From Tubiluchus corallicola (lineage: Eukaryota > Priapulida > Priapulimorpha > Priapulimorphida > Tubiluchidae): a stretch of 64,000 bases of DNA. A program made the translations under genes and the position numbers. Shown one piece after another: positions 22,801 through 63,514 of the stretch. Each line of letters starts with the position of its first letter. Position 1 is the stretch's first letter. Below the pieces are notes generated by a model that was not told the origin of the DNA, did no database searches, and saw nothing but the letters and a program-made list of their open reading frames with translations. The DNA is taken from NCBI GenBank assembly GCA_030141605.1, contig JAQGDQ010000125.1, positions 186,001 to 250,000 of the forward strand, read 5' to 3'.

Positions 22801-25800
22801 AATTTACTGCACGATAAACTAAATTAAATACATACTTTTTTGTCACAGAAATTGATTGAACATTTACATTTAAGATTACTGTAGTGTTTAGGAAAATCCT
22901 AGTTCGCTGGGAAATTTTATTTGTTGCTGTGTTTAAAATTGGGGTTATAGAATGAATATGATCTAATCAGACTTATGTTTAGGACACAACTTTTACTGTT
23001 AACAACAATTTATCATTGAAATTTACTAGCAGAAACGTTTACTGCTGCATATGCGTAGCAGATGTAATGTATATGCTTTAACTGTTCTGTTCAGGGTGTA
23101 TCAGATAACTGGGATGTCGAGTCAAACAGCCGTCTTCTAGATCTGACTGATGAAAAGCACATGCTAATGACTATAGTGGACATTATAGGTTTGCAATATT
23201 TGTTTTGTGATACTTTTACTACTTCATTTTGTTTGTGTTCATTTTGTCAATCAGTTTGTGTGTGTGTGTGTATGTGTGCATGCGTGCGTGTGTGTGGGTG
23301 TGGGTCTGGGTGTGGGTGTGGGTGTATGCGTGTACAGACTATATTAAAAGTGCATATGAAATGAAGTTTTGCCTAGGTTCTACTTGGCGTCAAATAAAAC
23401 CTATGCAGTGACACATTTAGATGCCATGAGACTATAGCGTTTGCAGCAGTGTGATGATCCAGGATTGCGAATAGTGTCGTACTATGCAATGTAGAATTGT
23501 GCATAGTTTTCAAATGCACTGCACTGTGCCACATTTATAAAAAGAACAAAAAAATTTGGAGTTTTAAAAAATGGACCCCTGAGAGTAATGTTAACATTTT
23601 ATGAAACAGTGGCATTCACTAGTGTTTCTGTAAGTATAGCTTTTTGTAGGTACAATTTCACATTTTATTTTTTTTAAAGTTTTGTAATAACAAAAATTGC
23701 AATTGTGTTTTAGTTAGTTAGCTGTGCATTTTCCTAGCTTACTTGATACCGTACACATTTTTAGTATTATGTAACCATTTCCTTGCAGATGGAAAGTGTT
23801 TTGTTAATCTTGTGTTACCGGAATCTCACAAGTCAGTTGCAGATGAATTGATTGAACAAGGTTATGCACTTCGATGGTTACCGCCATCACTTAGTCCCAA
23901 GAAAGAACCTAAATTTGGTATTGAGTAAACACTGCTTTTATTGTATATAGAAACTGGCTATTTGTCTGACTTGCGATTCATCTTGAGGTGGTATAATGAC
24001 AATTACAGCTGTAATTACTTATTTAACACTAAGCTCCAACCTAACCTGCAAAAAGATTTTTAACTGTGTTTTAGTATTTGTACTTATTTGATTCATTATT
24101 AATTAATTTTTATCATTAATTTATTTTTATCTTATAATCTTTCTTAAAAGATGCTAATTTTCATTATTGAATCTTTTTTGATTTGTATTAGTAAATCGAT
24201 TAATTTTATTTTTATGTAAAAAAAGCTGACGATTAACCTGATGTCTTGGATTCTATCAAGTCCATATTGTTCATATCATAAAATTTAAAAATAATATAAA
24301 ATAAAATCTTGTCATAAAATATAATAAGATTTCAAGTGAGCTTGCTTTTGAAATTGTCTAAATTAAATGGATGTTTTTATGTTTTAAACCTTTTTAACTG
24401 TGCAAAATGTAGATACAATGAACAGATGATGAAGTAAGCATGCGATGATTACACTTTTTTAGGATTGTAACTTTCTGCTGAGATTTATTATTGGTTTAGT
24501 CACAGTTTACTTCTTTATTTTACAGATTTAGATGAAGTTTTTATACCTGATCAGTTAGTATTACCAGATGCACCATACTGGGATGTGTATGTTTTGTATG
24601 TGACAAGTGCTGTAGAGTTAGCTGTTCGTCTTATAGGTGATGATTACAGTGTAAGTTTTGATATCATACTTGTCTATCTATCTATCTATCTTATTTTTAA
24701 GTGTGTACACCATACACCCAGTTTATGATTTAATGTATAAGATATTGTTCCTGTGAATGTTTTTAACTTTCACTTTTGCAGAACCTTGTTCATTTACATA
24801 TTGTTTATTCCTTCAGGACCATAAGCATTTGCTATATTTTGAAAAACTGCTCTCATTAAGCAGCGATTACATTATATTTGGTACTTTTTGTAGATTTTTA
24901 CTCCTCACACAATGGATTTTCATTCAGAGTTATATATGAAATACATTGGCTTACTTTACACAAATCAAAAATCAATTTTTGATGAAAAATTTGAGAACAG
25001 CTTTCAGTAACTGCAATGTTTGCACTGTGACAATGTACAGTGTTACTTGTGTGAAATTGTCTGATGCAGAAAACTTGAACTATCCATACACAACACTCTG
25101 ATACACATTGGCCTCAAGTCACTCTATTTTAAGGAGAAATTCCTGTTAAAATATGAAACGATCTTAATTTCTCCTTGACTGTTCTTTTGGTTTTTCCTGG
25201 TTATCTGTGCAGCGATCAATAAAACAGTGTGCATGATCATACAAGTGTGCACCAGATTAAGCTACTCATTAGGCTAAGTTAGAGTGACTGAAAATGGCAC
25301 ATTTTTCTTAATTTTATCCAATTAAATCACTTATAAATGTTTAAACAAATAGCATGATTGAATAACCGTTATTCTCCTGATTAGAACAGTACCTAATATG
25401 TGATTATTTAGTTATGTATTTGCTCATGCAGCAGCAGAAAAGTCACAGGTCTAATGAGACCTATTTTGAATGGTGTGGTCCTGAAGGAGTTAGCCCTCTT
25501 TGAGGTTGTAGTTTTAAATATTTTTATCATTTTGATTTTTATGTAATCTGATCTTCACCCTTTAGGTTTGGTCTTTGTAAGCATTGATTTAAAAATCCTA
25601 ATATAATTTGCGTTAATTTGTTCAGATTAAATACGAACAACTTGAAGAAGATATGTCCTACTTCTATAATTTGAATACTGATTTGCAACCAGTATCTCAA
25701 CCAAAGTTAAAACACGTCTACGCTGTTAAAGTTGAGGAAGATGTGTGGGTTCGAGGAGAGGTGCATTATTTTGATGAAGAAACTTTAATGGTGAGCATTA

Positions 25801-28800
25801 TAATTCATGATGCATTATGATTATTGGTAATTGTAACTTTGCTCTCTTTTACTCCCTGCTCATTTTGTTACTTAACATAGATCGGATAAAGCTTGTGTAA
25901 TGCTTCTAAGCTTCCTTCATAAGCAAGCACTTTACATACACTACTTGTAAGTTATTCTATCAATAAACAAATGTAGCAGTTTAGTTAAAATAGCAAATTT
26001 TTTTAACGTTGGTTGTTTCTTTAAGTTTCAAGCTACGACTCCGTAATTCATGATGCTTATAGACTGTTTCCATGTGTCCATGCTATGCGCTGTGAAAATT
26101 ACAAGCAGTAATTTTTGAAAACCGTGCATTGTCGAAATTTAACCGTGATGACTACAGCTGCGGCGTAAGCTTATTATTGTACTATTCGACAAAAAAAATG
26201 CAACAGAAAGCACCGGTTTTGGGTGCACAACATGTTGCAGGGGAGAGACCAATATGTCAGGTATCATCACTTAGTGAAGGAACCGCAACACGTAACTACG
26301 TGTTTTTTCCACCTCTCAGTAACTCAAATAGAAAAAATATTACTGTATATAGGTCCTAAAGTGACCAAAACTCACATAACTAGAATTTTCACAAAGCTAA
26401 ACAGCGTAAATGGTCAACTTGAAAACTCGCTATAATCACCTAGGCAATGGCGGTTTCCCGTCTGCGCATTGCTGCGCGATGCGTATTCTGACGGTAGTCA
26501 TCACTTTCTAATGAATATGGATCACACATTACGGATTACACATTACATACATACATGGAAACACTTCTACATATTTGCATACAAACTGTTGTATACGCAT
26601 TACAGATCACGCATCACACATTACATACACATAGAGTCGTACCTTTATTTGTATTATTTCTATTACACATTTACCCATGAGATTATTGCATCAGGATTAT
26701 GTTGTCTATGTAAGCATGCTGCGGCTATTGACAATATTTATCCGTGCAGGTAGAATGAGGAGAGTTGTATTATATTTTGCTGAAGTTTGTTAGATTATAC
26801 GTGTTGATACTGAAGTCTGGAAATACCATATTATTTGCTTGTGATAAATATTTGAAGAATTTACATGTCTAATTGACATTGCAGGTGGATGTACTATTCC
26901 TTGATATTGGCTATTTAGAGAAAGATGTATCAGTTAAAGGCTTGAGGCTTCTGGCTTCACAGTTTCAAACTCTTCCATATCAGGTGTGCAGATATAAACT
27001 GTTTCATTGCATTACTTTTTATTGTTGAGAAAATGTGAATTTTGTGCTAATCTTCCATAGACGTGCTTGTCATGTTCTGTTAAACAAACGACTATCGAAG
27101 AATTGATTTTTATTTTACCTTTATTTTCTCACTTTGTTACATCACCTTTCAGAAAGCAAAGTGTTTGATTTTCATAGGAATTTTAGTTTTTTCTTTCTTA
27201 TTTACACAAGTCTTGTCTGCCACACAATGTTGCAGGTATAGAAATGAGATTTCATACAATAAGATAGTGATATGCTGTCAGCCAGAATTAAATTCTGTAA
27301 TTTGGATGATACCTGCTTGGTATTTCCTTGTTTTGCTGTTGGAGAAGAAAAGGAGAAAACTGTTGTATTACTAGGCAACCATTATTACTGCCAAGGCAGA
27401 AATATGCAATGTTTATTATTGCTGTAGTGATTGTAAGCTAGTATGTATATATATATGTGTGTGTAGGCAATAAATTGTACCCTGGAGGGGATAAATGAAG
27501 CTGATGAATATCTGGTGGGTATGGACCTCCTACTTGAGTTAACACTAGCAAAGAGCTTGGTGGCTGAGGTCATAGAGAGGTAGGAAATATTGCTTTGTTT
27601 ATTGACCTTTAACGCTTTGCTTAATTTGTCGTTTTTCTTGTTTTGTTACTTTACTCTATGCATAAAAATTCATCAAAGTCATTTTGCTGGACATTACCTC
27701 AAAAATAGTGCAGATACGTCATTTAGCTTTTTTGTAATCAGATCTGATGACACGTATTACTGCCTGGTAGACTTGTTTCATCCCAGCTTAAGTCATTGCT
27801 AGATTTTCTTGTAATAACTTTAACTAAAAGGGTAGCTGATTTGCTAACCTCTAAGGTTTTTTTGCCACCCTTCCTGTAAATGCTAATAACGTGTTTTGCT
27901 ATGTACTTGATTTTTTCATGTATTGCACAAGATAAATAAATTTATCTGAAAAACATATTCTAATTGTTTTAACTGCTACAATGGATAAACTTTTCATCAA
28001 AAATGTTAATTAAAAATACCAAACTTGTTTGAAGTACCATTGCCCTTATGAAGTGTCATTGACAAAGTATGGAAATACCAAACTTTTTAGTGTCAAAATT
28101 AATGAGTTGTTTAAAGTCTTGTAGAAGGAATAGAAATGGTAGACAAAAGTACAAGTGATTGTATGTATAATAAAATATCAGTTGCGCTTTTGTCTTTTAT
28201 GGCCTCAGAAAATTAGAGGATTTTTGAAAATGCAAAGAATGGTTATTCTGTTACTTTTTTAAACTGTAAAAGTTAATGCACGTTAGAGTGCCTAGTCAGT
28301 TGAATTTATATTGCAATTAATTTAATAATTTGGTTGAAATTTGATGATGCCTCGTCAGAGTAGAAACATATGAAGTGCTGAAACAAACAGTCTTGTTTAC
28401 CGTGTTGCAGGTTAATGCCAAAAAATAATTTTTGTTTTCTTTTATGCTAGATACACGTCAGACGATTCTGTTCATGTGATATTGTATGATACGTCAGGAG
28501 AAGAAGATATAAATATAAATGAAGTCTTAATGGACACACTGAAAGAGGTATAGAAGATGAAAAGTAAAATATCTTTTGTAACTAAAAGCTGAACAAATGT
28601 GAAGCAATGTATTTGGTTTCTGTTATTGATAAAACGTTGTATGTAAATGAAGGGAAAAGTTGCATTTGTTGTTGTTTTCAGGCAAAGGCCAATCCTCCAA
28701 GCTCTGATGATCAGTTTGAAAGTGTGAATGCAGAGCTACAACAGCCATTTTCTATAGATCGCAAATTACAGGTAAATCTTTTGTAAGCTATAAAAAATTT

Positions 28801-35387: not shown

Positions 35388-38300
35388 TCAGTATTGGATG
35401 GAGCTCATCAATGCAAATGCCAATGATTCCACTAAAAAAAGACAAATTTATCATTTGAGCCTTCGAACAGCCACTAAGCAGAAAAATGGATTAGCATAAC
35501 TGATACCAAAATTGGTAAAATTTACTAAGACCTTATTAGTTCACAAGGTGAATACTTACAATGTATGTATGAGCCTCTCTTTATTACGTTATTTAGGAAA
35601 GACAAGAGGAATGTGTGACATCGTGCAAAAGTGCTCTCCATTTCATCAACTGACTGCTGACTGCAAAATGAAAAGCGAAAGCATATAAACACTAAATTTA
35701 CACAAACTGATGACATTTAGATGAGCAATTAGTAATGAAGCAATCAAATAGATGGTTCAAATCTAGTTTAGTCTCCACTTTTCCACGTTTTATATCTTTT
35801 GATGAACTTTGATTTTTAAATTTAATGATTGTCAGCTCATTTTGCCATTAGTGTAAATAATGTATTGATCAAACACGAATGCAGTTATGTAAGTGTTGGC
35901 TTCTTTGTAAAATGAGATGACATCTTACACGTACTAATAAATGTAAAAGTGGGACAGAAACTTTTAGTTTATTTTTACAGATTCAAAATTTATGACAAGC
36001 TGCCCCAAAGTGAGCCTGTAGATTATACTGCAGCAACTACATGTGCTCTAACTCTAAGGGTCACTTGCCTAATTCTGCATAACAGTGATTTTAAAATCAA
36101 TTGTGTGTAATTATGACTCCCTAGTCTATTAGTCTGGGCACAAACCTAACTAAATTTGTAGTTTCTCAGATATGCCGCATAATTATAATTCACAAGTAAA
36201 AAACAAAAAGTTGTAACTACTGAAACTTCGACTATAAAACACCCTAAGCAGTAGTGGCCAAGGCATTTGCAAACCTGACATATTGCAAGCAGTTTTGACA
36301 AGAAGCTTCTGCACACAGAACAAGCAGCATTACACATAAAAATTCAGTACATCTTTAAGAAAACACGAAGATGATTCTTAATAACAAAAGCAGGTACATA
36401 TAAAAAATTCAACAATTATGAAAGCGAAAGGAACACTGCATTTCAGGCCATCGGTATGTGCAAGTGAAAAGAAAAGAGAATGCCGTTATCTTTTATTTTC
36501 TTTATTGTGTTTTTTTTATTAATTTAGCCTTCAAGCAAACTTGAATCTTTGTCCATAAAGTAGGAGAAGGATGAGAAGAAACCTAGAGATATCTAGAGTA
36601 GATATGTAGAGTTCTTGCTTGCAATTAAAAATCAACGAACAACTAATGACCTAATGTTGTGTATGCCTCTTCTCCAGTTCATGTGAAAGACGATAGCCAA
36701 GTTGAGAACTTTCATAACAGCTTCTCTGATAAAGGTGGACTTTTTGTGAAGTAGGCACCGTTCAAATATGCGCTGAATATATGCCTCGTGGGTAGTGATA
36801 ATTTGCTCAAGATCATCACATTCTGCAAAGTCCTGGTTGAACTCCAGTTCAGTACTATGCAAAATCTAAGATACAATGCACAAAAACACACAATTAATTT
36901 GTAATTAATCTATAAACGATATAAATTTGTTACTTAAACTGTAGTACTGTCAGACCTATTTGTGTTTTCTAAATATCTTATTAATGTGATTTAAATGTAG
37001 GATAAATACACATGAGCCTCAAAAAAAGTTAATCTTTGGCTTCGTAATAAAACAATTTTTAGTTTGCACTCATTTTAACCTCCCTTGATGTTGAATTAAA
37101 TATTGAACAACCGAAGAAAATGGACATGCCGAAATAAAGATCTGAAAACAATATTGGGGTAAGGAGCAAATATTGCAAGTCTACAGATGTTTCTGTTAAA
37201 TGGCCATTGAGCAACGAAAAATTGTTACAGGTGGAAAAAACATGGCCACAGTGTAAAACCAAGAACTTGTGCTACAATGAATGAGCGATCCATGCAGTGC
37301 ACAAGCTTAGACTAGGTGAATTACTAGGAGCACTACCGTGGAAGCACTACCAAGCCCAAAAATGTTAATAAAGTTTAATACACTATGATCTCGAGTGACT
37401 TATTTTTATTTTTGTCTCTCTGCCAAAGGTCATATAATGTAATTCTTACCCTGGTCATTATGTATGTGTGGAAACTATTAACAAAATGCATTAGTCGAAC
37501 CCGAAACATCATCAGTTTGTGGACAAGGGCAGATTTCGTATCATAATGTCCATTTTTAGCTCCTTGCTGCAAATCTGTGATTAAATATTAAACTCTTTTA
37601 ACTAAAAATTAAGTTTTAAACCAATTCTACTTATCATGGCGCATATGTAAAATGTCACACAAACTTTATGTAAAGAATAAAATGACAACTATTTCAGTTT
37701 ACAAAAAATAATCATTCAAACACTTTACTATGAACATCTAAAGAATGGTGCATCAGCAATGCAAGATTTCACTTGTGTGTCAGAAAATAAAAGCAATTAG
37801 AACCTCAATAAGGTTCATTTTTCTCTGAAAGAATTTCAATTTTAAACAGCTCTTTTTAGAAAAACTTGTTTATGCAGCAAACCATATCAATCTATTTGTA
37901 CCTAATCAAGAGCATCACAGCGCGCTTACTGTCAAGCTTTAGTGCCATTACACTGCCGAATCAATAGGAAGATATTGTTTAAACTGGTCACTAAGATCAC
38001 TTCAACAACAAGCCTCTCGTAATTACCTTCAAACCGCAGTATATCCAGGCTATATTTTGCTCGCTTAACCTGCAGAAGAAATACCAAGACTCTGCTGTAA
38101 GTTTGCTGTGAATCGGCATGTATAACAACATCAATTGGCCAAGGAACCTAAAGAAGAAACAGCCACAGATAACAGACCAGTAGATTGTGGTCATTTAGAA
38201 AGCTTAAAAGTAAAGACTAGCACATTTATGATTTAATAAGATTAAGAAGACTTTTCACTTGCTGTTTGCAGTTTAAAAAACAATATAAAATAAAAACTGT

Positions 38301-54932: not shown

Positions 54933-56862
54933 ATCCTTTGTTTTTTGGTCGTTTTACTGCAGTGCGAGGTGGCGGATTTGGCACCTCAAAAATTGCACCC
55001 ATTTACGTGTCCTGCAATTAATTTATATAATTACACAGATATTATATTGTAGGTTTGTATATAAATAATGCACACACGCACGCACACAACAAGTAGTTGT
55101 ATATGGTACTTCATATGTAAATAGTCAATACAGTAGCAGAGATGAGTAGGAAAGTGCCAGCTTAGGTATTGTAATTTCTTGATATACCCATACACACACA
55201 TTTTTCCAGAAATAGAATACTACATGAGCCAGGTATTTGCAAACTTTTTTATGATCAATCTTCTTAGCTTTTTTTCTAAAAAAGCCTACTATTTTTCATG
55301 AGACATGAATACAACAGTTTTTGTTTTAAATACTAATCACTCTTAGTGCCTTATGCAGTTATGCGTGCTTTAAATAATTTTCAAAAATATAACAGCTGCC
55401 AAATCGCCAAAGACATATGTAAGCCTTGCAGTCTTTTCTTAGTGTACAAATATTTAACGTGTAAGTTGTAAGAAAAGTTACAAAACTGTGTTATAATTAG
55501 CATTTTGTTATAATTACGTGGCTGCATCCTCAGAATATTTAAAACGATATTTTTATTTGTGTTTTTGCAACTCACTTCTGAGCAAGTTATGAGCACCTGT
55601 CGACCGGGTGGTCTCATCAATTCATCTGTTACAGTACACACCTGTACGAGAACAACTTGCGCTATATATAGACTATAGTGTGCCTGCCTACAAACATAAT
55701 GCTGTGCCGTAGGACGACACTAACTGCGCGAACTGTTGCCGCAGTATCTGTTTTATCTATACTTTTTGTGGTCTCTATTCTTTGAATATATCACCAAAGG
55801 AGTGGTGATTTCCCGTATTACACTTTTTAGTCGACTGCAACGGAACTATGTAATTTTTTGTCTTAGTTTTAAACCTTTTAATTAGCAAAATAAGTTATAA
55901 AGGATCTTGTATTTAAATGTAAAGTAAACTACCGTACCTATTTAACCGTTCTGCGGCTATTGAAATGAATAAAATCTTTGCTTACTTACTTGATTGCAGA
56001 ATCACAGCGTTAAGGTGAGTAGTACTAATAATATTAATACTACTAGCAATAGTGTTACTGTTAGTGTGAACAGGCTATATCTTGAAAATTTTGGTTAGAT
56101 TCAGTTCTAAATTTCAGACAATCAGAGAGCACAAGCTTGAGTAAAAACTTTTATCCAATTGCAAGAACAATTGGATTACTTCCTATTTTATGTTCAAGTT
56201 GCTGAATTTTTATCATTATAACAGTGTTACTGAAATTATAGTGAAATAAACAGTTAGTTTTACATAATTTGATTCTACGAACGTAATATAGAAACTTACT
56301 AACAATTGTGAGTCTTTTGCAGAACCTCACAAAACAACGAACACATTCTTCATTCTTCTTATCATAAATGAAAAAACGTAATTATTTCTGATTGGCACAG
56401 CAGTAGTTTTCTAAATTTTGAAGTTATTGATTAATTATTAATGGCTGATGTGACATGAATACACAATTACTAAATAGTGTTGTCTGTAGACCATAGTTCT
56501 AAGCAAACAAAAAACCTAATAATTGTGAGTTTGTTCCATCTATTATCAATAATCTTAAAATTGCAATTATAAGTAATTTAATAATAATCTGGAAATAATC
56601 CTAGGTACTGGAATAAATACAAAAAGCCTACACCAAACAGTTGGTTTAATTCAACTTTAATTAGCCATGCACATGTTGCTTGCAAATGATTGATTGGTTG
56701 TTAAGCTAGTCAAATTTAACTGAAGTTTGCTTTATTCACAAATGTTATATGGTTTAGTAGTCGTAACAGTTTACTTGTAATCTAAAGACCCTGGTTCAGA
56801 TGATGGTCTTTGTATTAAGATTTTTTTGAAAATTATGTTAAATGTGAATTTTTTTGTTTTCA
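54933..56862. other. Upstream region of the GCN2 gene
   Basis: No coding exon recognised. A strong donor-like AAG|GTGAGT occurs at 56014/56015. Paired with the acceptor TTTGTTTTCAG ending at 56863, it would define an 849-bp 5' UTR intron of the GCN2 gene. The first exon and promoter would then lie left of 56014. Candidate only. Confidence 0.3.
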
Positions 56863-56864
56863 GG

Positions 56865-56917
56865 ATGACATTATGAACAATGATACAATTTATATTACAA
56901 TTATCATGGAATTGTAG
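56865..56917 (+). promoter_or_regulatory. Two overlapping uORFs in the GCN2 leader
   Basis: Right after the acceptor (ends 56863) come ATG ACA TTA TGA (56865-56876) and an overlapping ATG in another frame that opens a 14-codon uORF ending TAG at 56915-56917. The main ATG (56927) follows nine bases later. If the acceptor is used, every spliced transcript carries both uORFs. Their regulatory effect is inference. Confidence 0.5.
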
Positions 56918-56926
56918 TTGAAAGAA

Positions 56927-59900
56927 ATGGCTGAAGAAGAGGAACCACTATCAGAACGGCAGGATAACGAGATTGAGGTACTTAAAGCAATATTTGGGGA
57001 TGATCTGGTCGATTTGCGAGAAAAGGATGTTTGGAAGGTGAGAAGACCACCGGAAATTGTTCTGAAATTAGCACCATTGAAAGGATCAAGTGGAAATACA
57101 GAAGTACATGCTCAGGTAGACATGACTGTAAAATGTACACACCGTTATCCATTGGAGGTACCGGCAATCAAGCTGGACAGCGTTAAAGGTTTGTCGAAAC
57201 AGATAATAACAGATCTTACAAAACAGTTGCAAAATTTTGCTATGAGCCTCAGAGGTGAAGTGATGATACTTGAATTAGCTGATTTTGTGAGAAAGTACCT
57301 ATATGAATACAATATGCCACGCTATTCGTCATTTTATGAAGAAATGATGTCTAATCAGAAAAAACATGAAGCAGAAATTGCCAAGGTAGAAATGAGAAAG
57401 CAAGAATATTCACGGTTAAAACAAGAAAGAGAAAAAAGGGAGTTGGATGAAGAAATAGAGCGAAGGCAAGCTGAAATGCAAAAATTGAAAGCAGAGTCTA
57501 AACAGAATAGAATTTCTCCTTCGATTTTAATCAATCCAAATGTTGGTTTGACAGTTCCTGATAATGCTTCTAGAAGTCCTACTGTCTTGGAGGAAAGTCC
57601 TAAAGGATCGTTGAAACATGGAACACCTACAAGAAGTTCACGGGTAACTGACAATGAACAAAGTGGTGATTGCAATGAAATTCCTGCAATCTGGGGTGTA
57701 GGTTTTAGTGGTCAATCACGGCTTAAAAATGAATTTGAAGTTCTGCAATTTCTGGGTAAAGGTGGTTTTGGTGACGTTATAAAGGCGAGAAATAAACTAG
57801 ACGGGAGCATTTATGCCATAAAAAGAATCCCGTTAAATCCAAAATGTAAGCAACTTAATAAAAAAATTACAAGAGAAGTACAATTACTTTCTAGATTAAA
57901 TCATGAAAATGTAGTTAGGTATTACAATTCTTGGATTGAAACTGGAGAAGTGATAAAAAATTCTGAAGAAGATGAGTTAGGTTCGCTTGAATCAAAACCA
58001 TCTTCAGCTGCTAGGAATGTTTTCAGACAAGCTGGACAGGGTGAGCCTATGAGTAAATTTACTCCATATCTTCCAGAAGGAGCAATCGAGTGGAGTGTGT
58101 CTGACGACCTTGAACAGGAGTCTACCCAAGCTCTTGCAGATATGGATGATGATGATGACGACGAGGATGGTGATGATATAAATGGCACATTTGAAAGATT
58201 TTTATTTCCATTTGACGAAGAATCAACAGATAGTGTGGTCTTCGACTATGGTAATAATCAACAGGCAATTGATTCTTTACAAGAGGAAAGCAGTTGGACT
58301 CAAGACAAAAGTTTTAGTGATTCGGGTAAGCAACGTAATGTTGTACAATTCATGTACATTCAAATGGAATACTGCGAAAAATCAACATTGAGAACCTGCA
58401 TTGATGATGGCCTCTATGAAAATATAGAGAGACGGTGGAAATTCTTTCGAGAACTTATTGAAGGCTTGCTTCACATTCACCAGCAAGGTATGATTCACCG
58501 TGATCTCAAACCTGTAAACATATTTTTAGATTTGAATGATCATGTTAAGATAGGAGACTTTGGGCTTGCTACAACAGACATTATGACCAAATCAACTTTG
58601 ATAGATGCTCAGGCAAATTTAGAGTCTGAGGCTGACACATGTCAACCAGAACTTCAAGAGCTGACCAGCAAAGTGGGAACAGCTCTCTATACTAGTCCAG
58701 AATTGATGTCTTGCTCCACCAGCTCCACTGTTTCATATACACAAAAGGTAGACATATACAGTTTAGGCATAATATTTTTTGAGATGTGTAATCCACCGCT
58801 TAGCACAGCGATGGAAAGAGTTAAAGTAATCAGTGACCTCCGGCGGCCAGATATTATTTTCCCAGAAAATTTTGATCAGACATCCGCAGAGGGCTTGATC
58901 ATTCGATGGCTTTTGAATCATGATCCTAAGCAGCGACCGACACTACAGCAACTATTGCTTTCTGATTATTTACCTCCACCACAACTTGAAGAAGCAGAAC
59001 TGAATGAAGTACTAAGGCATACTATATCAAATAAAAACAGCGCGGCTTATCGACGGTTAATGGGTTGTTTGTTCGCTCAGTCTGTCACTCCAACGATAAG
59101 TTATACATATGATTTGTTTTTGCATAAAGGAGCATTTGCTTATATGCCTGCTATGATTACTCGTCAAGTCCATTCAACCGTGGTTAAGATTTTTGAAAAG
59201 CATGGTGCCATTGAAGTCAACACTCCTCTTTTTCTGCCTTCAGATCCTCTTTGGCAAAAGCAAGAACTGGGTGTACATGTGATTGACTGTAGTGGTTTGG
59301 TGGTAGACTTGCCATATGATTTGCGTGTGCCATTTGCAAGATATGTTGCCAAGAATAATGTGACTAGCTTAAAGAGGTACAACATTGGTAAGGTGTACAG
59401 AGAAAGAAAAAGGCTGAACTTTGGTTCTCATCCTCGAGAATTAACTGAGTGCGCATTTGATATAGTTACTTCAACAGCGGCTGGTCTTATACCCGATGCT
59501 GAAGTGCTGTCTGTGGTGTGCGAAATTGTGGATTGTTTTCCTGTGCTTCAAAGCAGAGGATATATTATCAAGATTAATCATACTTTATTACTTAAATCAC
59601 TACTAATGCATTGTGGCATAGCGGAGCAGAATCATAAAGATGTACTTTCCATACTTGAAAACTTTGGAAAATTGTCAAAAGATATGTTGGAAACTAGGTT
59701 ATATGGTTTGTCTCTTAGTGTCAAGTCGGTTGAATCACTCTGCAACTACATGGAAATTGAAGAGGATTGCAAGAAGATATCTTGCATGATGAGATCCATA
59801 ACTAAAAGGCCTGGTGAAGCAGGCATTTTAGCAAGGCAAGCATTGCGTGAGCTAGATCTAATTAGCAATTATTTAACATGTTTTGGTGGCAAGTTACAGG

Positions 59901-60880
59901 TACTGGTAAAGCTTAGCCTGATGTTTAATGTCCATTACTATTCCGGAATGTTTTTTCAGGTTGTCAGTGAACATTCCAAAAAAAAGAAACAAATGCGTTC
60001 ATTAGACATACTTGCTTGTGGTGGACGTTATGACAATTTGATTAAAAAATACACAAAGCCTCACAGTTCTTCTAACATTTCCCAATTTGTGGTTGGTGTT
60101 AGTATAGAGCTTGAAAAACTTATTGGCAGTGCTAAAGAACAGGAAGACTTCACTCCTAGTGGTATATATGATATTCTGGTGTGTTCTGTTGGAAACGCCT
60201 CACTAATTCGTGAGAAGATTGCTTTAGTTAAAGAACTGTGGGCAATTGGCCTTCGAGTTGACTTGCAGTATGAAGGCGTTCGTGATTTAGAGGAATTGCA
60301 CGGTTTCTGTAAAAAATCAGGTGTTTCACATCTAGTCATTCTAAAAGATACTGAAAGTGGATTAGTGAAGGTGCGCTCATTTGTTAAAGACAGAATGGTG
60401 GATAAAAAAATGACATATGCGGAATTGAAGGAAATGCTACAACCAAAAGCACCTTTAGCTCTTAAGCATACAAGTTCAGATTTAGAGCAGCATCAAAAAG
60501 TTATAGGACAAAATTCTATTTTGTATAATCATCGATTTCTTTACCTGGAGAAAGTGGCAAGTAACCAGAAACGTATGCATGAGCGACAGTTATCTGCCCA
60601 CATTGTGCCAATTTTGCAGAAAGTTGCCCCACGGTCAGTTGTTGAGGTTGTTGCTACTGAACTGCCAGCTTCAGTCGTAAAAACAGTGTCCAGCAGCTTA
60701 GACATGCAAAGTGAGTCTACTTTCAATGAGAGTACAGGAATAGTCATGCAAAAACATCAGAGATACAAAAAATATTTAAATCAAGTTTTGGATGTTATTC
60801 ATGAGCTGTACTTTGAAAAGGAAGCATCAATGATACTTTTATATTCCGTAAAGGATGATATGAGTAGGTGTCTTTTATGA
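56927..60880 (+). CDS. EIF2AK4: eIF2-alpha kinase GCN2, single-exon, without pseudokinase domain
   Basis: Phosphorylates eIF2-alpha when uncharged tRNA builds up (family knowledge). One ORF of 1317 residues. Start: a TAG lies in frame (56915-56917) just upstream, so the ATG at 56927 is the first in frame. Domains: RWD about 10-128 (binds GCN1 in the family), charged coiled coil about 135-195, kinase from about 270 (glycine loop GKGGFG 277-282, AIK Lys299, acidic insert about 400-420, HRD 524-526, DFG 544-546, activation-loop GTALYTSPE with Thr585), HisRS-like about 690-1180 (RYNIGKVYRERK, LTECAFDIV, ILACGGRYDNLI), C-terminal domain to 1317 (HIVPILQKVAPRSVVEVVA, SVKDDMSRCLL). All kinase catalytic residues are present. 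The usual pseudokinase between RWD and kinase is missing; human GCN2 has about 1649 residues. No intron interrupts the ORF, unlike the neighbouring genes. Confidence 0.95.
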   Translation: MAEEEEPLSERQDNEIEVLKAIFGDDLVDLREKDVWKVRRPPEIVLKLAPLKGSSGNTEVHAQVDMTVKCTHRYPLEVPAIKLDSVKGLSKQIITDLTKQLQNFAMSLRGEVMILELADFVRKYLYEYNMPRYSSFYEEMMSNQKKHEAEIAKVEMRKQEYSRLKQEREKRELDEEIERRQAEMQKLKAESKQNRISPSILINPNVGLTVPDNASRSPTVLEESPKGSLKHGTPTRSSRVTDNEQSGDCNEIPAIWGVGFSGQSRLKNEFEVLQFLGKGGFGDVIKARNKLDGSIYAIKRIPLNPKCKQLNKKITREVQLLSRLNHENVVRYYNSWIETGEVIKNSEEDELGSLESKPSSAARNVFRQAGQGEPMSKFTPYLPEGAIEWSVSDDLEQESTQALADMDDDDDDEDGDDINGTFERFLFPFDEESTDSVVFDYGNNQQAIDSLQEESSWTQDKSFSDSGKQRNVVQFMYIQMEYCEKSTLRTCIDDGLYENIERRWKFFRELIEGLLHIHQQGMIHRDLKPVNIFLDLNDHVKIGDFGLATTDIMTKSTLIDAQANLESEADTCQPELQELTSKVGTALYTSPELMSCSTSSTVSYTQKVDIYSLGIIFFEMCNPPLSTAMERVKVISDLRRPDIIFPENFDQTSAEGLIIRWLLNHDPKQRPTLQQLLLSDYLPPPQLEEAELNEVLRHTISNKNSAAYRRLMGCLFAQSVTPTISYTYDLFLHKGAFAYMPAMITRQVHSTVVKIFEKHGAIEVNTPLFLPSDPLWQKQELGVHVIDCSGLVVDLPYDLRVPFARYVAKNNVTSLKRYNIGKVYRERKRLNFGSHPRELTECAFDIVTSTAAGLIPDAEVLSVVCEIVDCFPVLQSRGYIIKINHTLLLKSLLMHCGIAEQNHKDVLSILENFGKLSKDMLETRLYGLSLSVKSVESLCNYMEIEEDCKKISCMMRSITKRPGEAGILARQALRELDLISNYLTCFGGKLQVLVKLSLMFNVHYYSGMFFQVVSEHSKKKKQMRSLDILACGGRYDNLIKKYTKPHSSSNISQFVVGVSIELEKLIGSAKEQEDFTPSGIYDILVCSVGNASLIREKIALVKELWAIGLRVDLQYEGVRDLEELHGFCKKSGVSHLVILKDTESGLVKVRSFVKDRMVDKKMTYAELKEMLQPKAPLALKHTSSDLEQHQKVIGQNSILYNHRFLYLEKVASNQKRMHERQLSAHIVPILQKVAPRSVVEVVATELPASVVKTVSSSLDMQSESTFNESTGIVMQKHQRYKKYLNQVLDVIHELYFEKEASMILLYSVKDDMSRCLL

Positions 60881-63514
60881 CTTGTACGATGTGTAGGTAT
60901 GTGCATAAGACAATAACTTGGTGGAATCTTGAATGCATAAAACACTGTTATGTCTGTTGATGAGGCAAGTAGACGAGTAATTTTCTGTGTTAATCGACAG
61001 CAAAGTTAAGAAATACTGAACTCAGTAGCTGCAGCTAGTGACAAATGTCTGGGGTGAATGTGATTGCCTAGAAGACTACTTCCAGGCAGTTTCATTCGCC
61101 ATACTGTCTCTGGGTAATTTTCTTCTACTTGAAGAATGTAGCTACCTGAAACACCTCTACTGATTCAGTGTTTCATCTTTGATGATTGATTATTCCTAAT
61201 AACAGAATAGGTTCCGACCTCCCTAATGACATCTAAATTAAGTAGGGTGTGCAAGATAAGTGCCGGGCAGCAGTTATCACTTAATGCGTGCTTTATCTTA
61301 TTTCAATGATTAGTAGTGTAATTATTTATTTTAACAAACATTGCTAATGAAGTCACTATTGTGGATCAACAAAACATAAAATCTAATAATTATTAATAAA
61401 TGGCTAGTCTTCATAAAGGGTTTAACTGTGTTGACTGAAACAGTAGGAATTAAAACAGCAAATGCAGTGGACATAATAATAATAGCTGTTTTTATTATTA
61501 TTAAAGTGCATCTGCCTTTTAAAAAGTACATTTTCTATGTACATGTCTTCTGCTTTCCTGCTTTGATTTTGCTGATAATAACATTTGAACGCGAAAGGTT
61601 TGGCAAACTTCTTTGATTAAAAAAAAACTAGTGAATACCTAATTCTTTAAATAGAACTTGCTAGTTTGTACAAAATTGACATTTAATATTATTTTTTACT
61701 GATGTTTAATGTTAAATTAAAAATAGATAAAAAAATAACTTTCAACGTAACAATTGCAGTGAATGATTTTCACGCATGGCCGAACCTTAAACTATTGTTC
61801 AGGTTTACAAAACATATATAAATGTATACAGCATTTGTACATAGAAAAGCATCATAGAACAATCCTGGTTGGTACACATCTTTGTAATACAGGAAATTCC
61901 GTAACTAGTGTAGTATTTTTTGGTGACATTTTCTCCCATCCGTTGTCCAATAAATGTAATTATATGCTTTTTTCTTTTTAACTTTGAGAAGTATATCTTC
62001 AGTATAGTGTTCAGTATGTGCTGAATGTTGATTTACCATCACAATTCATCACTGGTTGTTGAATTATAATAGAGCAATGCAAAAGATACATGAAAAAAGT
62101 GCTGTTAAGATATTTCCTTTTCATAGCAAAACTGCTGTTGAGGTTCTTAATAAGAAAATGGAATGTTTCCAGTGTGGCTGTCTAGCATGTCTTTGATTGC
62201 ACTATGTAGAAAAAATTACCCAGAATTGCTCATATTTATAAATAAATTATGTACTGTAATCAGACCTTTCTTTTTTACGTTGGTGAAACTTTTGTTACAC
62301 TGCATTGCAATTATTTTAACTACAATAAAATGTATATTTTCTTATTTATTTAAGTTATTATAATGTTTTTGTATAGTGTAATACGTGTATTCATAATTAC
62401 TATCACATAGTAATTAACAGTTTTTTGAAGGGGATTTCTCCAGTGTAGCAATTAAGCATTGAGCCCGCTTACATCTTTATAGTATACAATATTAGCGTTG
62501 TATATCACTCATAAGAATTCACAGTTTTTGGCCATGCTCTAGAAAGACAAGCAATGATATTATGTGCTGGTATGAGCAACCTAATTTTTCACAAAGGTAT
62601 TGTTAGTCTGTAGCAGGTGGTAAAATGAATCATTTGTAGGCCACACATTTTTTAATGTAAAGAACACAACATATTACCTCCTTCCAAAAATGCAAAATTC
62701 TTAAAACTTTTTAAGTGTGTCAATTGTTTTTATTTTGAGCAAAAATAAACATCCATATTTACAGCCTCTTTGGTGAAAAAATACCATGTTAAACCTACAT
62801 GACTAGATCATCAGGTCTCAGTAAAAAACTTATAGCCATATTTGTAACACTGTTGCAATAATAATTACCATAAATAAATACAGTGTTTGTTATCTAGTAT
62901 ATACAACTTCGATTACGTTTACAACAAAGTCTTCAAGTATGTTAAGCGAAATATTTACATGAATTTTACTGTTTGCAAAATCTAACTAAATTGGGCCTAC
63001 TCGAAGGTTATGAACGTTTTGTACAGGTACTGGCTGACAAAGTCTAATAAGTTCACTACGTACTTAAAACATGTTTCCACATTTTGTTCGTCAGCATTCA
63101 TTTTCTGAGTGGCCCATTAAATTATGCAAGGGGATTATAATATAAATAATACTAACTAATAATAAAAATTTATACTCTTCTCACAGTTTAAACTACTTAT
63201 GTACAGTCCGTTCAAAGGACAATAGTACTTCAAAATTTTGTTTTGGCTCTACTGAGCACTGGTACACTGCTTAGTCATCTTTCATGTCATTGTTGCAAAA
63301 AATTTTGGCAGTTTAAACCAATGTTACTTAAACTGATAAACCTCGGAATTCAAGTTAGTCCAGGGTAGTCCACTACTATCTGATTAATCAAGCATCTACT
63401 AGCCTAGGAGTGACCACATTGTCAAGTTAAAAGGGGGCAATGTTCATAACCTTCTGTTAATTGATTTTATAGTTCACTGTACTGTATGAGGCATGTCTTC
63501 TGCTTTCTTCACAA
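60881..63514. other. GCN2 3' UTR and spacer
   Basis: No further coding sequence recognised. AATAAA motifs occur at 61395, 61949 and 62241 and could end the GCN2 transcript. An A run (61619-61627) is too short to prove a retrocopied poly(A) tail. Confidence 0.45.

Follow-up and report, generated by a model that had tools for sequence, protein, structure and literature searches.

GCN2-like kinases that lack the pseudokinase domain have been described in several protists. In the passages of PMC4889150 that treat domain content, this absence is reported for LdeK1 of Leishmania donovani and is also stated for TgIF2K-C/D of Toxoplasma and PfeIK1 of Plasmodium; TgIF2K-C and PfeIK1 are further described, in excerpts, as lacking the RWD domain. 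In TcK1 of Trypanosoma cruzi, the RWD domain occupies residues 28-136, the kinase domain starts at residue 277, and the pseudokinase is absent (excerpt of PMC7176912). In Leishmania and T. cruzi, kinases with the LdeK1/TcK1 layout have been linked with nutrient stress (excerpts of PMC4889150 and PMC7176912), and a dominant-negative LdeK1 impairs phosphorylation of eIF2alpha upon nutrient starvation (excerpt of PMC4889150). Here we describe a GCN2-type kinase without a pseudokinase that is encoded by the priapulid Tubiluchus corallicola, in a stretch of 64,000 nucleotides of contig JAQGDQ010000125.1 (assembly GCA_030141605.1, positions 186,001-250,000, forward strand), referred to below as the window.

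One passage of PMC5851622 mentions a 'loss of partial KDs' in lower eukaryotes and names no animal case. No report of an animal GCN2 without a pseudokinase was found in a limited search of the open-licence literature. Plant GCN2 is another kinase that possibly lacks the domain. The parts of two Arabidopsis papers considered here (PMC6687712, PMC7201089) neither confirm nor deny this. Since the LdeK1, TcK1, Toxoplasma and Plasmodium kinases share the absence of the pseudokinase, the architecture itself is already known; what looks new in the Tubiluchus protein is its occurrence in an opisthokont and an animal, combined with an otherwise complete domain set.

Domain architecture of the Tubiluchus GCN2

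The gene is a single uninterrupted reading frame on the forward strand (positions 56927-60880 of the window) that encodes a GCN2-type eIF2alpha kinase of 1317 amino acids. It lies in an open frame at 56918-60880, in which the natural start is the ATG at 56927 and no internal stops occur. At the base composition of the window, a random frame of 1317 codons would stay open with a chance of about 10^-43, and the base composition of the gene varies with codon position. The coding region (3.95 kb) is intronless, and the DNA at the place of the pseudokinase is contiguous with both flanks.

Pfam search with the whole protein revealed four components: (i) an RWD domain at residues 10-123 (56954-57295; PF05773, E 3.6e-20), which also aligns to the PDB chain 8t7t, (ii) a kinase domain (Pkinase, PF00069, E 9.1e-50), (iii) a HisRS-like domain of the tRNA-synt_His family at residues 746-1046, with a VYR motif at 823-825 (59162-60064; PF13393, E 7e-15, and alignment), and (iv) an anticodon-binding-like region of the HGTP_anticodon2 family at residues 1082-1179 (60170-60463; PF12745, E 8.3e-9). 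The Pkinase match consists of two stretches, the better of which covers residues 474-681; from the profile, the alignment and the motifs together, the active kinase domain extends over approximately residues 267-681, with an insert at about 341-470 (57725-58969). The GCN2 C-terminal domain (CTD) at residues 1205-1316 (60539-60874) was found by a separate phmmer search with the last 148 residues, where the match to 4otn_A spans 112 residues (E 6.3e-9) and 8t7t_A is matched with E 1.4e-6. All these parts are encoded on the forward strand, as is a charged helical linker at residues 134-193 (57326-57505), which lies inside the alignment to 8t7t and is predicted as a helix, with confidence at about 141-190. 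The presence of RWD, a kinase with an insert, HisRS-like domain and CTD assigns the protein, by its sequence, to the GCN2-type eIF2alpha kinases in the broad sense.

The best match in PDB is the full-length GCN2 chain 8t7t (857 bits), which we take to be human, i.e. mammalian GCN2/EIF2AK4; it is followed by 9bf3, apparently a fungal Gcn2 (376 bits), and by yeast Gcn2 9f58 (375 bits). With HisRS chains set aside, the ranking of PDB matches places GCN2 first, then HRI, PERK and PKR. The protein shares with 8t7t the RWD domain, the charged linker, the kinase with its insert, the HisRS-like domain and the CTD, all in the same order, and the alignment that includes the HisRS-like part extends over chain residues 1054-1649. 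With the two fungal chains it shares RWD, kinase and HisRS-like domains in the same order; these alignments stop at residue 1141 (9bf3) and 1071 (9f58), so the C-terminus is covered by neither. Unlike all three comparators, the Tubiluchus protein has no pseudokinase.

The motifs expected of an active kinase are retained, including the glycine loop at residue 277, as the initial annotation placed it, K299, E317, HRD at 524, DFG at 544, and the activation-loop threonines T580 and T585, presumably the phosphorylated ones. In the alignment, K299 and E317 stand opposite K628/E643 of yeast (a pair named in an excerpt of PMC4335047), and both HRD and DFG are intact. The tRNA-binding m2 pair, F1143/R1144 in human and Y1119/R1120 in yeast (excerpt of PMC6421407), aligns as Y824/R825. 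From these conserved catalytic residues, the kinase is predicted to be active.

The missing domain is best seen in the alignments. In phmmer comparison with 8t7t, residues 5-222 correspond to chain residues 17-228 and residues 264-1316 to chain residues 585-1649, so that 41 residues face 356 residues of the chain. Similarly, 58 residues face 393 in 9bf3, and 76 face 404 in 9f58; the gap thus falls at the pseudokinase in all three full-length chains. Weak extra phmmer stretches inside 8t7t (335-363 and 405-449), 9bf3 (343-524) and 9f58 (334-524) represent the active kinase of this protein matching the pseudokinases of the comparators. The place of the pseudokinase in other GCN2 is occupied here by residues 194-266 (57506-57724, forward strand), which are rich in Ser, Pro, Gly and Asn and predicted to be coil.

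Profile searches agree with the alignments. No kinase family was detected in residues 124-266 by Pfam with the whole protein at E<=1; a 147-residue piece covering this region matched seven Pfam families (E 0.041-0.7), all below their cut-offs and none of them kinases; and in PDB at E<=10, residues 125-268 matched no kinase and gave four weak non-kinase matches (E 0.62-2.5). As a positive control, Pfam Pkinase recognised both of the fungal pseudokinase segments scanned, no animal pseudokinase being among them (best E 3.9e-17, 62.9 bits). A profile built from these two fungal pseudokinases matches that of 8t7t weakly (8.9 and 2.0 bits), so a strongly diverged pseudokinase could escape profiles. 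The question is settled by length, independently of profile sensitivity: the RWD domain and the kinase are separated by 143 residues (124-266), whereas the yeast pseudokinase alone (residues 291-538) takes about 248 (excerpt of PMC4014428). AlphaFold run without an alignment on residues 1-270 gave a model that is poor overall, the RWD domain included (mean predicted local distance difference test score 50.1), and that contains a helix at 134-193 followed by coil at 194-270.

Pfam, chain alignments and length thus bear out the initial annotation, which had described a GCN2 passing from RWD and a coiled coil directly to the kinase, and had asked for alignment with other GCN2 and for domain searches. 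The shortfall against human GCN2, put at about 330 residues, amounts to 333 (1650 minus 1317) and lies at the pseudokinase; the kinase, HisRS-like and C-terminal domains, said to be intact, were all recovered by profile or phmmer matches; and the kinase-like fold sought between residues 130 and 265 was seen neither by profiles nor in the AlphaFold model. Judged by its sequence, the protein is a GCN2 complete save for the pseudokinase, and because this domain is missing between RWD and kinase we do not class it with the five-domain GCN2 of yeast and mammals.

Since fungal and mammalian GCN2 both have a pseudokinase, the Tubiluchus protein most plausibly lost this domain secondarily. The layout resembles that of LdeK1 and TcK1, which, as published, also have RWD, linker, kinase and HisRS-like parts and no pseudokinase, with a spacing in TcK1 near that found here. 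In these two proteins, unlike the Tubiluchus one, the HisRS-like parts are poorly conserved. The likeness is one of layout and not of shared ancestry of the loss: because LdeK1 and TcK1 belong to distant protists and the Tubiluchus protein is closest to mammalian GCN2, the losses were probably separate. We consider it likely that the GCN2 of this genome is a working eIF2alpha kinase whose pseudokinase was lost in this lineage.

GCN2 relatives elsewhere in the assembly

The whole assembly (343.5 Mb, 2344 contigs) was searched for further copies. The second full-length GCN2 that the initial annotation suggested looking for was not found: of 131 first-look candidates, 35 were scored and matched, one place matches the whole protein, and the other 34 each cover at most 345 query residues, although the evidence of absence is incomplete, since weak or split matches may escape six-frame searches of this kind. 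No GCN2 relative was detected in the other scanned contig sets, i.e. genome contigs, where three bacterial loci match the kinase range, and viral contigs, with no matches.

A detached pseudokinase was sought with 73 residues taken from the pseudokinase of 8t7t, a query that gave 115 genome matches at E<=1. Among the best 21 of these, 20 were examined, and all 20 contain the catalytic Asp in the HRD, YRD, HKD or HCD form; because they carry this residue, they are not GCN2-type pseudokinases. On contig C70, the single match is to the kinase of the GCN2 gene itself (E 0.465).

Several candidate relatives were assigned to other proteins. An RWD match on C2144, the one examined as a possible part of a split GCN2, was rejected, as it belongs to an RWD+RING protein that reads as RNF25-like; besides it the genome contains three weaker RWD matches. 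Two other eIF2alpha-kinase-like genes occupy separate loci, an HRI-like kinase on C2197 and a PERK-like kinase on C486, the latter in separate short frames. Matches of 45 residues with 58% identity on C486, C1238 and C2243 were assigned to the PERK-like gene on the evidence of an adjacent exon on C486, the only one of the three contigs examined. The PERK-like pieces on these contigs have identical scores and spacing and probably represent unmerged haplotypes or a recent duplication. The set of PERK-like and HRI-like genes, together with the higher score of the GCN2 against the mammalian chain than against the fungal ones, points to an animal; a COX1 search had no hits, and neither did the arthropod cuticle family PF00379, a weak negative, as the control genomes likewise lack matches to that family.

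Two HisRS-like loci, on C1597 and C179, each lie in one open frame, the lengths of these frames being 493 and 460 codons. The IMPACT/YIH1 family (PF01205), whose members compete with GCN2 for GCN1 (excerpt of PMC4889150), has six genome matches on contigs C1597, C2177, C1700, C1721 and C1030, two of them with identical scores on different contigs.

Possible origins of the shortened gene

A tentative explanation of the structure of the gene, compatible with a working GCN2 that lost its pseudokinase, is retroposition: a transcript spliced without the pseudokinase exons would have been reverse-transcribed and inserted, would have captured an intron in the 5' untranslated region, and would have replaced the intron-containing parent. 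Such an event would account for both the intronless coding region and the missing domain. The single frame of GCN2 stands against the split frames of the PERK-like locus and of the gamma-tubulin-complex and Tudor pieces; a parent copy was not found in the assembly; and a CAG at 56861-56863 (forward strand), preceded by a T-rich tract and located 63 bases upstream of the start codon, is a probable 3' splice site of such a 5' intron. Other genes or domains in one frame are found as well, at two of the seven strong MCM loci and at the two HisRS-like loci mentioned above. The same several single-exon genes also mean that introns could have been lost by other means. No clear poly(A) tract is seen, the longest A run in 60881-62600 being 9 bases at 61619, and there is no clear flanking or target-site repeat; two AT-rich 11-mers are common to both flanks and may be chance matches. 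Because these two hallmarks are not clear, we treat retroposition as a possible origin and not as an established one.

The MCM domain lies whole in one frame at two of the seven strong loci and is split at the other five, a count that leaves out five loci without any piece above 33.2 bits; the genome thus mixes intron-rich and intronless genes. As a separate observation, conserved genes in one long frame were seen on C2311 and C2185 (MCM), C1597 and C179 (HisRS-like) and C2144 (RWD+RING), and others, MCM genes included, are split, as if retrocopies had repeatedly replaced their parents.

Three further explanations are rivals of a working GCN2 that has lost its pseudokinase. A stretch of a full-length gene may have dropped out of the assembly in frame, or the gene may be the deletion allele of one haplotype, and the PERK-like pieces with identical scores on three contigs indicate that haplotypes were possibly not fully merged. 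Such an artefact is improbable: the frame is open across the junction, no other contig with a longer GCN2 match was found, and the error would need to delete exactly the pseudokinase and preserve the frame. It is quite improbable that the gene is a decaying, non-functional remnant and that the organism has given up amino-acid starvation signalling or relies on a different eIF2alpha kinase for it. PERK-like and HRI-like kinases do exist in the genome, but 1317 codons are free of stops, all residues checked in the catalytic site, the activation loop and the tRNA site are kept, the three codon positions differ in base composition, and the search for another GCN2 that could cover for the loss found none. 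Gene fission, by which the pseudokinase would have become a separate protein acting on the kinase in trans, like STRAD on LKB1, seems very improbable. A six-frame search could overlook a pseudokinase that is diverged or split between exons, given how weak the match is between the fungal pseudokinases and the mammalian one; the catalytic Asp in every examined match to the pseudokinase piece, and the single match on C70 falling on the kinase of GCN2 itself, nevertheless speak against it.

Upstream of the gene, a 14-codon upstream open reading frame (56873-56917, forward strand) starts 9 bases downstream of the likely splice acceptor and ends 9 bases upstream of the main ATG; it could tune the translation of GCN2 itself during stress. 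Of eight neighbouring reading-frame pieces scanned in the window, two have Pfam matches: a piece of a gamma-tubulin complex component at 37938-38147 on the reverse strand (PF04130, E 4.7e-7), and a piece of a Tudor-domain protein at 25620-25817 on the forward strand (PF00567, E 0.00025, below its cut-off). The window contains no Rfam matches and no tRNAs. Elsewhere in the assembly, the full copy of 5.8S rRNA, on C1972, scores 121.1 bits, and a second, shortened match at C77:510801-510927 reaches 56.7 bits and is possibly a pseudogene of ribosomal DNA.

Proposed activation without a pseudokinase

The RWD domain of known GCN2 binds GCN1, and that of the Tubiluchus protein would likewise dock on it. 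The HisRS-like/CTD part would be acted on by uncharged tRNA and/or the P-stalk of the ribosome, which would free the kinase from autoinhibition by the CTD; the kinase domains would then rearrange, autophosphorylate the activation loop at T580/T585 and phosphorylate eIF2alpha. The contact step between pseudokinase and kinase known from yeast may be skipped or taken over by the HisRS-like domain. Because the HisRS-like domain, CTD, kinase, RWD and charged linker are all kept, we infer that the usual input from GCN1, ribosome and tRNA passes through the HisRS-like part and the CTD. Such a route would be the known HisRS/ribosome activation minus one booster, and a new mechanism would not necessarily be required.

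The initial annotation stated that the pseudokinase is needed for activation in yeast and mammals, and that this protein would have to be activated differently. The first statement holds for yeast and is overstated for mammals. In the excerpts of PMC6421407 considered here, ribosomes do not stimulate the kinase of purified human GCN2 alone and stimulation is restored when the HisRS-like domain is added; the pseudokinase is called "mostly dispensable" for activation of human GCN2 by ribosomes. With ribosome activation reported there for a human kinase+HisRS construct without the pseudokinase, the second statement goes beyond the evidence.

Several points weigh against an active GCN2 of this form. 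In yeast, the pseudokinase is in direct contact with the kinase, and starved cells from which the domain has been deleted fail to activate GCN2 (excerpt of PMC4014428). Human constructs without the domain bind ribosomes more poorly and are significantly less active than the wild type (excerpt of PMC6421407), and according to a review, ribosome binding needs three core domains, of which the pseudokinase is one (excerpt of PMC6824675). Moreover, the published kinases without a pseudokinase come from distant protists and have weakly conserved HisRS-like parts.

A bolder scenario, which we regard as doubtful, is that an animal lineage has fixed a pseudokinase-free GCN2 through an exon-skipped retrocopy that replaced its parent, that this kinase responds to a shortage of amino acids solely through the HisRS/ribosome route, and that an animal can therefore dispense with the pseudokinase in vivo. 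Accounts of the pseudokinase differ, the domain being required according to yeast genetics and mostly dispensable for ribosome activation according to human biochemistry. An otherwise well-conserved GCN2 of the animal type without this domain amounts to a natural deletion experiment, and the question can be tested by domain swaps. The Tubiluchus gene suggests that the pseudokinase can be lost in an opisthokont, and not in distant parasites alone.

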